DNA of 33,484 nucleotides, from NCBI RefSeq assembly GCF_009795805.1, contig NZ_WTEY01000018.1, forward strand, positions 1 through 33,484. Direction: 5' to 3'. Numbering within the stretch: position 1 is the first letter of the stretch; each line of letters begins with the position of its first letter. Positions 5,905 through 26,774 of the stretch are shown here, piece by piece. The notes under the pieces are model-generated. The model was not told the DNA's origin. It did not search any database and worked only from the letters and a program-made list of their open reading frames with translations. This DNA is from Gilliamella sp. Pra-s52 (GTDB lineage: Bacteria > Pseudomonadota > Gammaproteobacteria > Enterobacterales > Orbaceae). The position numbers were made by a program, and so were the translations under genes.

Positions 5905-6001
5905 TACATCCTCACACCACTTATTATCAAGCCTTTCACACTCAAAGACACATAATACCTTAAACATCTTAACCAGTTATATAAGAATACTTTTGTAAAA
6001 A

Positions 6002-7633
6002 TCAATGTTCATGCTTAATAATATAATTATTGCCATCAGTAGAAAATACACCTGAAAAACTAAATGGCTGTAATTTGCCTTGTAAATTAACCGAATAATT
6101 CATAGCGGTTGGAGGCTGTTTTAGTAATTTCCAGTCTTCTAACAGTGAACTGGTTACACCATAAGCATTTAATTGCAAAGATAATGGTTCATTTTGTGAT
6201 AAATCAACTTTTGTATTTGACTCGATCATCCCTCCACTCGTTAATGTACTAAACGTTAACAAAGCACGATTTTCAGCATCAAATTTTAAAACCATATCAG
6301 GATAACTAATATCAACTCGATTAAACGATCCTTTTTCAGATTTAAAAGAAGTCGATCCTGAAAAGAGACCTAATTTGTGATCTTTCGCTAAAACGACATC
6401 CGTACCCGAAACCTGAAAGTTATATAACGTGAAAGGAAAATCGCTATATTTTCTAATTATCAAACTTTGTAAAACGGTAAGTTTATCTATCTTGATACTT
6501 TTAAAAATACTCGGTAATGCCAACAGTTCCAGCTTTTCAGGAAGCTGATAATTAATATTTGATAATGTTAATTGCTCTAGATGTAAAGTGTTATCTTTCC
6601 ACTTCCCAATAAAATTTATACCGCCTTTATTCCATTTTGCTAGTGCTTTTTTGATCTCCACTTCTTCATCATTAGATGATAATTGAATTAATACCGACGC
6701 AAACTTCTCATCATCCCAAACAACATGATCAGCATTAAAAACAAAAGCACTTTGATCAAAATGCCACTGCTCATCATAACTCAGATTAGTTGCTTCAACA
6801 TTACCTTTTTCAATTAAAAAATTAGGCACCTGAATGCTACTTTCAAATATTGATAATTGCTTGATCGTCAAATTTGGCAGAATATGAGAATACCTATTCC
6901 AAAAATCATCATCAGTTGATTGCAAATTAATATTATATAGCTGTAGCTGATCGACATTTAAATGCTTATCAGCAAGTATTTTTAATTTACCAACAAAAAA
7001 ACCATTATCAATATTAGCACCTAAATTAGTCACTGTCGTAATACCATCACAATGGAATCCTTGAATAAGCAATGATTTAATTGGAATTTGATTGACCGAT
7101 ACAGCTTGCGAGGTAAAATCAAATTGATATTTATCTTCCCCTGATAACGAACCCGTTGATAACGAAAATGGTTTAACACCACCATTTAGCTGTGTAAATG
7201 AAATCCTATCTTGCCCGCTATTAACTGAAATATTAACGGTTGAATCAACTAATTTTAGTGTATTTGTTGAAAAGCTATAATGGCTAAATTGACCATCTTT
7301 ATCGACATGATTAATGGTACCATTAATGACAATAACATAATTAAAATGGTTTAATTGCCAGAGACGATTTTTATCCAATCCTATGACTAATGTTGGTACA
7401 TGAACAACCTCTTGTCTATCATTTCTTACAATAACATTATCAAAAACTAATTCATAGAAATTTGAAAAAGAGTGACGAACACTACCGATTGAAATTGTAT
7501 AAGAACTCAATTTGGATAATTGTTGACTAACTATTTTAGCTCCGAAGGAAGTTTGTATGGCAAAATAAGACAATAAAACCAAAAACCAAATAATGGTTAA
7601 GAAGATGATTATATAAAATCGTAATCGTCGCAT
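6002..7633 (-). CDS. yicH: AsmA-family inner-membrane protein, YicH-like
   Basis: 543-aa protein with one N-terminal membrane segment (about residues 7-27) and a long periplasmic beta-rich region. It resembles E. coli YicH (569 aa) across its length; shared landmarks are NGGVKPFS, LGANIDNG, the DHKLGLFSGS stretch and FNRVDISYPD. AsmA-like proteins (AsmA, TamB, YhdP, YdbH, YicH) are bridge-like proteins tied to phospholipid movement between inner and outer membranes; YicH's own role is poorly defined. No ribosome-binding site is obvious, and a 13-bp inverted repeat lies just upstream. It precedes hslR-hslO on the same strand by about 97 bp, a neighbourhood unlike E. coli. Confidence 0.85.
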   Translation of the reverse strand: MRRLRFYIIIFLTIIWFLVLLSYFAIQTSFGAKIVSQQLSKLSSYTISIGSVRHSFSNFYELVFDNVIVRNDRQEVVHVPTLVIGLDKNRLWQLNHFNYVIVINGTINHVDKDGQFSHYSFSTNTLKLVDSTVNISVNSGQDRISFTQLNGGVKPFSLSTGSLSGEDKYQFDFTSQAVSVNQIPIKSLLIQGFHCDGITTVTNLGANIDNGFFVGKLKILADKHLNVDQLQLYNINLQSTDDDFWNRYSHILPNLTIKQLSIFESSIQVPNFLIEKGNVEATNLSYDEQWHFDQSAFVFNADHVVWDDEKFASVLIQLSSNDEEVEIKKALAKWNKGGINFIGKWKDNTLHLEQLTLSNINYQLPEKLELLALPSIFKSIKIDKLTVLQSLIIRKYSDFPFTLYNFQVSGTDVVLAKDHKLGLFSGSTSFKSEKGSFNRVDISYPDMVLKFDAENRALLTFSTLTSGGMIESNTKVDLSQNEPLSLQLNAYGVTSSLLEDWKLLKQPPTAMNYSVNLQGKLQPFSFSGVFSTDGNNYIIKHEH

Positions 7634-12352: not shown

Positions 12353-12386
12353 GAAAAACTTCAATAAAATCAATACCTTTCCTGAC
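12353..12386 (+). repeat. Left 34-bp terminal inverted repeat
   Basis: Begins GAAAAACTTC and ends CCTTTCCTGAC. All 34 bases are the exact reverse complement of 12742-12775. The match breaks at both ends: A12352 faces A12776, and C12387 faces A12741. Confidence 0.95.
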
Positions 12387-12741
12387 CGTTTTTTTTGGGT
12401 TTTTGCATTGCTTTTTAACATAAAAACAACTAACAAAAAATACCTAAGGTTATGTTGTTGTCTTGTTACGGCGTCGGACAAATTTGTCTGGAACAAATTT
12501 GAACATCTGAGCATAGCGAAGATGGCCTCGTAGAGGCGAGTATCAGGATGATACGAGTAATGCCGAAGGCCACATTCTGTAGCCTTGCGAGGGGTTTTTA
12601 GTGGATTTCGCAAAAAATCCCCTAAATCGGACGTGGTCACTGTAGCTATTTTGTTCACCCAAAGTTCAAACGTCCGAAACCTCTGCACTCAATCCACTCT
12701 ATGCACCAACAAAAAAAGACATTATTTTGATAAAAAAATCA

Positions 12742-12775
12742 GTCAGGAAAGGTATTGATTTTATTGAAGTTTTTC
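12742..12775 (-). repeat. Right 34-bp terminal inverted repeat
   Basis: Begins GTCAGGAAAGG and ends GAAGTTTTTC, the perfect partner of 12353-12386. Its outer end is 9 bp from the ubiA stop codon, so the ubiA transcript would run straight into the element. Confidence 0.95.
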
Positions 12776-18470: not shown

Positions 18471-19904
18471 TTAAGGTGTTACACATACAGAGGTTAAAAA
18501 CATACTCGAATCCGTAGGTATAATAGCACCATTATAACCCGCTACTGAGTATTGGCTACTACCATCCGAATCTGATGTCCAAAACATAGAACTATGTCTC
18601 CAATCATCAGTATCAAAAGTATATGTTTTACCCCACTCATTTAACAACCCACCTATCCACCTGCCATTACTTTTATAGCTAAGTTGCCTAAGAAATTCAT
18701 TTCGTTGCCCTGGTGCGCCTAACATCCAACTAGGGTAATTTGCATTGGTATAATCAGCAATACCGCCAACCCGATAATTCCCCCCTAAATCACGACAAAA
18801 TTCTTGAGCATGACCATAATCAACCATACCTTGATTATTATCATTATCATCAATATCAATAGGTTTAATAATATACCAACGTTCTATCTTAAAGCTATAA
18901 AGTAACTGACTATGTTGACTATCAGCATAAAGTTTAAAAAGCGACGGGCTAAAGCTTTTGTTAATTGAATCTTTATTAGGACCTTTTAAGGTTATCTTTA
19001 ATCGTGCTTCGTCTGAACTTAATAACAAGCTAACCAAACTACTACCGCTAACAGCCGAAACAGTCGTACCATTAGCATTGATCACTTGTTCTGGTGTAAT
19101 ACCTACTAACCGCAAATAAAAGCTGAGCTCATTTGCCCCCGTTGTTGGAAAGTTTTCCTCAGGATTATCAACATCTTTTATTTCAAGTCCATGCAATGAA
19201 CTCCAATTTTTACCATTCATACCATATACATCATTTGGTGTAGCAAAACACACGCGCGCATGATTTGTTTTCATGTTCGGATTAAAGTTATAAATATGGG
19301 CACCTCCCCATTCTGGACCAATATTGTTTTCTCTTGGTTCTCCATACTGGGTCGATAATTGAACTTTCGTTACGTACAGATTCAAGCGATAAGGCGCAAA
19401 ACAAGGATCAAATTTACTTGTTGGATTTTCTTTGACGATATCAGTAACATTATTACCGCTTACGTCATACCAAGCTAGTGATAACCTACCGCTTATATCA
19501 ATATTATCATCACCATCTTCATCGTACCAATAATGATTAGTACTAATCAAATCGTTTAACGCAATATTTGGGTAATTACTATTGCCTGATAAAGGAACCA
19601 GTGTTTCAACACTATCAAAGGTATCCATACCATCTGGTAGATCAATTACATCAGAATAATCAATTACTGTCGCATTAGGATATAAGCTTGACTCTCCTCC
19701 CTCTGGTATATATGCTTGCCCATTAGACAACCTGATACCTAATAACGCTTTAATATCGCTTTTTGTTGCGCCACCATCAAAAGTTAAGTAGGGTGCATGA
19801 CCGTGTATCGTATTTGAGGTAGTGGCTGATAACGCATTCACATAGCGTATATGACAAGTTATACAAAATAAAGTTAATATAAAATAATGCAATACAAATT
19901 TCAT
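18471..19904 (-). CDS. Secreted adhesion-domain protein (DUF823/invasin-type module)
   Basis: 477 aa with a classic signal peptide (hydrophobic core 5-18; cleavage probably after Ala24 or Ala27). The mature part resembles the adhesion module that ends some invasin/intimin-type enterobacterial surface proteins: NTIHGHAPYLTFDGG just after the signal, NFPTTGANEL (251-260), the FKLYADSQ...SFKIERWYI stretch (323-345), then a C-type-lectin-like end with AQEFCRDLGG (366-375), WIGGLLNEWG (416-425), MFWTSDSDGS (440-449) and CVTP. DEDGDDNID (128-136) looks like a Ca2+-binding loop. Mature cysteines 168/219 and 370/474 could form two disulfides. No beta-barrel, Ig repeats, LPXTG or lipobox is present, so how it stays at the surface is unclear. 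Family assignment rests on remembered motifs. It is monocistronic, with a terminator after it and parE divergent upstream. Confidence 0.75.
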   Translation of the reverse strand: MKFVLHYFILTLFCITCHIRYVNALSATTSNTIHGHAPYLTFDGGATKSDIKALLGIRLSNGQAYIPEGGESSLYPNATVIDYSDVIDLPDGMDTFDSVETLVPLSGNSNYPNIALNDLISTNHYWYDEDGDDNIDISGRLSLAWYDVSGNNVTDIVKENPTSKFDPCFAPYRLNLYVTKVQLSTQYGEPRENNIGPEWGGAHIYNFNPNMKTNHARVCFATPNDVYGMNGKNWSSLHGLEIKDVDNPEENFPTTGANELSFYLRLVGITPEQVINANGTTVSAVSGSSLVSLLLSSDEARLKITLKGPNKDSINKSFSPSLFKLYADSQHSQLLYSFKIERWYIIKPIDIDDNDNNQGMVDYGHAQEFCRDLGGNYRVGGIADYTNANYPSWMLGAPGQRNEFLRQLSYKSNGRWIGGLLNEWGKTYTFDTDDWRHSSMFWTSDSDGSSQYSVAGYNGAIIPTDSSMFLTSVCVTP

Positions 19905-26631: not shown

Positions 26632-26774
26632 TTTTATACTAAAATGCATACCTTCCCTGAAGATTTTTGACAAAATAGGTAATTTTTATAAATATTTTAT
26701 TGATTATTTAATAAATTACAGACAGAATTACAGTGCAGCATGTGCTGTATTTATTAGAGGTAATCACCTGACAT

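Follow-up and report, generated by a model that had tools for sequence, protein, structure and literature searches.

A structured element between folP and ubiA in Gilliamella and its possible place in a mosaic repeat family

The convergent gap between a folP-type gene (Pterin_bind, plus strand) and a UbiA gene (minus strand) in the bee-gut bacterium Gilliamella sp. Pra-s52 is occupied by a 423-bp element at positions 12353-12775, and the question it raises is whether this element is a miniature transposon (MITE) mobilized in trans, a structured noncoding RNA, or the remnant of something larger, the three candidates named in a preliminary description. Positions refer to the window, that is, the whole 33,484-nucleotide stretch analyzed here (contig C11 of a 2.49 Mb genome in 65 contigs). 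The ends of the element form an exact 34-bp reverse-complement pair (12353-12386 and 12742-12775), longer than any other exact inverted repeat in the window whose arms lie at most 600 bp apart, and the arms extend to 55 nt at 87% once mismatches are allowed. With the element removed, the longest exact inverted repeat elsewhere in the window is 14 bp, and 100 dinucleotide shuffles gave a maximum of 17 versus the 34 of the real sequence; the scan was seeded at 12 bases, so arms below that length were scored as none. The segment 12350-12785 has a predicted minimum free energy of -148.1 on the plus strand and -151.0 on the minus strand (z -10.1 in each case), with none of 100 shuffles equally stable on either strand. 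The only open reading frame of at least 80 aa, a 112-aa frame on the minus strand, has no Pfam hit, and homologous copies of the element differ from one another by 1-2-nt indels. The preliminary description is thus borne out on the perfect ends, the structured interior, the convergent setting, and the lack of a protein gene, and inspection by eye likewise showed no target-site duplication at the window copy. Its remark that glmM is missing after folP does not bear on the element as a cause, since folP faces ubiA with or without it; this arrangement was found at 18 of 30 genus loci, which are all of those with folP inside the fetched stretch.

The conserved end unit of the element is 41 bp rather than 34, and it turned out to be a motif, here called M, found throughout the genome. 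The left, folP-side copy lies at 12354-12394 on the plus strand and the right, ubiA-side copy at 12734-12774 on the minus strand, both placed by core sites and a profile of 103 copies from the same genome, with the consensus AAAAAC-TT-N-AATAAAATCAATANNTTTCCTGACCGNTTTTT. At up to three mismatches the genome contains 101 core sites, as compared with none for the reversed control, and among the 103 parsed copies (up to four mismatches) conservation spans exactly 41 positions and is near background outside them, except for weak T- and A-runs upstream; the A and T runs that edge M are conserved even though they played no part in copy selection. All but one of the 103 copies lie outside predicted open reading frames (two of these 102 overlap the edge of a frame by 17 nt), and the remaining copy sits in the 112-aa frame of the window element, which is taken to be spurious. 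Most M copies are solo, with flanks not shared with other copies (the largest flank clusters hold 8 copies upstream and 10 downstream), and such solo copies occur in all gene-orientation classes. A weak M-like match (up to five mismatches) was also seen at 26638-26661 on the plus strand of the window, distant from the element. Five M copies (L104, L121, L125, L137, and L038) have common upstream flanks near contig ends, as if they adjoined some longer repeat, for example an rRNA operon.

Beyond this genome, the 24-nt core of M is exact in G. bombicola, G. bombi, and two further Gilliamella (30 stretches), and a core match was found in 12 of 60 genomes, own included, all 12 within Gilliamella. 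A gapped form of the pattern gave 72 copies in the own genome, 79 in G. bombicola, 47 in genome G018 (whose copies most commonly have the center ATCAATGG), and 9 in G028. In 23 of the 35 genus genomes it found none, and the controls gave no match. One G018 stretch (L217, 1171-2236) carries six tandem M copies at steps of ~198-212 bp with a common unit between them. M is not palindromic, and its sequence suggests that it probably binds IHF; the variable bases coincide with the N4 of the IHF consensus, the last base of which is unmatched. That the window copy has perfect arms reflects the genome-wide conservation of M. Two M copies that flank a module (10 inverted and 12 direct pairs in the own genome, and in G. 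bombicola 3 and 17, respectively) show no closer similarity than pairs drawn at random (p 0.46-0.78), so the perfect arms carry little information on recent movement. An LTR-like origin, in which paired copies would be more alike than random ones, found no support in the same comparison.

Between its two M copies the window element is made of four modules: an L tail (12397-12472, plus strand), a palindrome P (12477-12561, plus), a hairpin module S (12562-12660, plus), and an R tail (12660-12731, on the minus strand as probed). Probes derived from the window showed that all four recur adjoining M at other loci, and all 10 own-genome copies of P lie in or beside M-bounded modules. P also has a relative outside the genus, with P-like sequence (84%) at eight places across two Proteus mirabilis records; the one place that was read (L216, 2501-2574) falls inside rhs-type sequence, and its source record is labeled a plasmid but has a size of 4.09 Mb. 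Among 22 aligned copies of S, 15 fold as an uninterrupted hairpin of 11-12 pairs (the L051 row was mis-cut), and five or more distinct arm pairs preserve the pairing; on an automatic alignment the covariation is weak, with one of 10 pairs compensatory. The order M-R-S-P-L-M was found at several loci in the own genome and in G. bombicola, and array-free copies with inverted M ends are represented by the window element, L046, and L159, together with L038 and L042 by homology. A further unit of 154-155 bp, called X, lies between direct M copies at L037, L052, L063, and L113.

The larger relatives of the element carry cargo. In these, a CRISPR array with its leader replaces the L tail, giving the order M-R-S-P-array-leader-M at several loci in the own genome and in G. 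bombicola and in Gilliamella sp. Pas-s25, and partly in G022 and G033. The own genome holds 35 copies (up to three mismatches) of the 28-nt repeat CCTTAACGCCGTATAGGCGGTTTAGAAA and its variants at eight dispersed loci, two of them with a single repeat; six of the eight loci yielded 29 full spacers, all distinct, and M lies within 0.5 kb at all eight. The first repeat stands 178-180 nt from M at five of these eight loci as well as in Pas-s25, and 262-263 nt from it at four G. bombicola loci; at the other three own loci the leader-side M is degenerate, truncated, or reversed and the opposite-side M is kept. Where both ends were found, the M copies of array cassettes are direct (L046, L051, L061, and L063 in the own genome; L074, L082, L083, and L085 in G. 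bombicola), as are the array-adjoining copies at Pas-s25 locus L071, with L044 as an exception because its leader-side M is degenerate and reversed. The L071 stretch itself holds a 13-repeat array (5976-6716) beside X, M, S, and R. No open reading frame of at least 90 aa lies inside cassettes L046, L051, L061, and L063. These relatives, as distinct from the window copy, have the features of type I-F arrays, namely 28-nt repeats, steps of ~60 nt, distinct spacers, and an I-F cas gene in the genome, assigned by family from Csy4 only. The Csy4 gene stands in a run of I-F-sized open reading frames with an array of its own that has a different repeat, and the nearest M among the matches listed is ~12.6 kb away. 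Matches to phage records were absent both for the window element and for the array stretches of three of the eight own loci, and parts of five of the 29 spacers, used as exact patterns, had no match in viral contigs. Part of the window element found a single weak place in one of 5,426 E. coli genomes.

Protein genes form a second kind of cargo. Among 16 loci examined in G. bombicola, 12 related open reading frames of a paralogous family lie between or beside M copies, and the four frames of this family that were searched have no Pfam family above the cut-off. A 477-aa protein encoded in the window (18471-19904, minus strand) resembles this family by tblastn and had no match in Pfam or NCBIfam up to E 0.1. 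The suggestion that the element is a decayed larger one therefore holds in part, in that larger relatives containing arrays or genes do exist. The link between arrays and modules is lineage-specific, because arrays with a related leader in G018 and G033 mostly have no P, S, or R (five of five and two of three loci, respectively), and M was found at one of these eight loci; arrays can therefore be dispersed without these modules.

To follow the folP-ubiA site through the genus, similarity to the window interior was scored, against shuffles of two-base blocks, in the stretch of up to 520 bp beyond the UbiA match at 30 loci (own included) from the 34 genus genomes with UbiA. Decayed copies in the same orientation were found in four species (G009, z 13.6; G008, z 11.8; G014, z 8.9; G022, z 6.2), and the closest relative, G028 (UbiA 98%), has an inverted copy with z 30.7. 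In G020 (UbiA 95%) the gap is 8 bp, and clear similarity is absent at 24 of the 30 loci, G020 among them; an inverted match in G034 with z 2.3 was not scored as the element. Filled and near-empty alleles thus both exist, and the element, with ~100 M ends in the genome and its modules at other loci, is neither single-copy nor identical in all relatives. The element is probably old at this site. As judged from these alignments, the simplest history would be an old presence, with the element later inverted in G028 and lost from G020, and independent insertions are the alternative history.

We have moderate confidence in the reading that the window element belongs, as a resident module free of cargo, to a mosaic repeat family of Gilliamella in which M is a dispersed, probably IHF-binding boundary. 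Recombination at M, whether carried out by a recombinase or transposase acting in trans or resulting from homologous exchange between M copies, would lead to modules being inverted, joined, or removed; we infer this mechanism from the arrangements described above. The window copy is probably without an essential role. Several observations weigh against this reading: no mobilizing enzyme was found in the families searched (Y1_Tnp and TniQ), M copies flanking one cassette resemble each other no more than random pairs do, G018 and G033 arrays with a related leader mostly do without P, S, and R, eight orthologous regions of G028, all too divergent, gave no exact empty allele for a solo M, and the IHF site is predicted from sequence, the last base of its consensus being unmatched. 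A more specific proposal, which we regard as tentative, is that small non-autonomous cassettes with the IHF-type 41-bp boundary scatter "seed" CRISPR loci (a leader with one or a few repeats) around the genome, along with genes for surface proteins, and also invert modules where they stand, that the resident type I-F adaptation machinery would fill the seeds, and that the window element represents a cassette of this kind that is empty.

A conventional MITE is an unlikely explanation on present evidence. Here an IS transposase would act in trans, solo M copies would be truncated remains, and arrays and genes would have been picked up in the manner of composite transposons. The element fits in its size and structure, in its intergenic position, and in its copy number, as do the inverted ends at the window copy, L046, and L159, and it is short, free of a transposase gene, and present in many copies. 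However, terminal inverted repeats are not a property of each copy, because M mostly stands alone amid flanks unrelated to one another, and the ends of array cassettes are direct. Calling M the inverted ends of a MITE is insufficient when there are ~100 copies, mostly without a mate; the MITE-like, structured, and multicopy character, with no recognized protein gene, is supported. By eye no target duplication is visible at the window copy, the G020 allele being too divergent to define the insertion site, and no matching IS was found among the families searched. Y1_Tnp is absent from the own genome, G018, and G023 (G. bombicola R-53248) and matched one of 35 genus genomes, and an IS200/REP-type mover was rejected on its absence from those three. 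TniQ is likewise missing from the three and matched two of 35 genus genomes and none of 14 control genomes; a CRISPR-associated transposon was rejected on this basis. Terminator hairpins as an insertion target for M were also rejected, since they were seen at a minority of copies and folding of the 45 nt upstream was no better than that of controls (p 0.63; 97 of 103 copies, six with short flanks being left out).

Comparably improbable is that M is a functional chromosomal site, bound by IHF or another nucleoid protein and laid out with replication direction, and that modules, arrays, and genes have simply gathered in adjoining AT-rich gaps. The very high conservation of M and the solo copies in all gene-orientation classes favor this, as does the orientation of neighboring M clusters. 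In G. bombicola, 30 of 37 pairs of neighbors are co-directional (p below 1e-4; 100 of 112 sites listed, 5 of 63 clusters removed for mixed orientation); the figures are 29 of 45 for the own genome (p 0.051; 10 of 74 removed) and 16 of 23 for G018 (p 0.050; 0 of 40 removed). The co-directional clusters hint at replication-linked insertion or selection, and they count in favor of the mosaic-family reading as well. Against a chromosomal site, the gapped pattern is absent from 23 of the 35 genus genomes, M is a module edge at many loci, and local GC skew agrees weakly with M orientation (43 of 71 and 19 of 28 loci; per-locus p 0.10 and 0.09). Least probable is that the element serves folP and ubiA as a structured RNA or as a bidirectional terminator. 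Although the fold is strong on both strands and at least five arm pairs maintain the S hairpin, the window has no Rfam match at the gathering score, one of 10 pairs is compensatory on the automatic alignment (on which a conserved RNA was rejected), the close relative G020 has no element, and similar modules occur at many unrelated loci.

If the cassette readings are true, CRISPR arrays in this genus travel as MITE-like repeat cargo with neither cas nor transposase genes of their own, one boundary sequence organizes both phage memory and a protein family, array seeding at a distance from cas genes becomes testable, and the folP-ubiA copy offers a marked site of inversion for such a test. Our literature search gave no description recognized as this repeat family, and within the literature searched the presence of one shared set of modules around both dispersed CRISPR arrays and a protein family appears to be new. 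Comparison with known systems places the family more precisely. Integron cassettes have a palindromic attC-type site and are served by an IntI integrase, and M is not palindromic. Type I-F CRISPR-associated transposons carry a CRISPR array within an element with conserved ends, as the Gilliamella array cassettes do, yet the own genome has no TniQ and the four cassettes L046, L051, L061, and L063 contain no frame of at least 90 aa. Tn3-type elements have characteristic ends and 5-bp duplications, neither of which was seen in the Gilliamella family. The likeness to the Tn3-derived TIMEs lies instead in miniature elements that form mosaics, since TIMEs are said to generate mosaic non-autonomous transposons (PMC4133298). 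Genomes with I-F systems typically have two or more arrays (PMC12814883, in whose main text the words Gilliamella and transpos- are absent), but the dispersed Gilliamella arrays differ in having common non-CRISPR flanking modules and an end motif. REP/BIME sequences are likewise mosaic and number about 100 copies (PMC2817692), as the Gilliamella family does, but M is not palindromic and the Y1 transposase family is missing from the own genome. Correia/NEMIS and other bacterial MITEs such as ERIC and RUP are similarly short, structured, intergenic, and many-copy. An IHF site has been reported for Correia elements, whose ends are 24 bp with a target duplication (PMC2229807); by contrast, the Gilliamella end is 41 bp and mostly solo, the interior is larger and modular, and relatives carry CRISPR or gene cargo.
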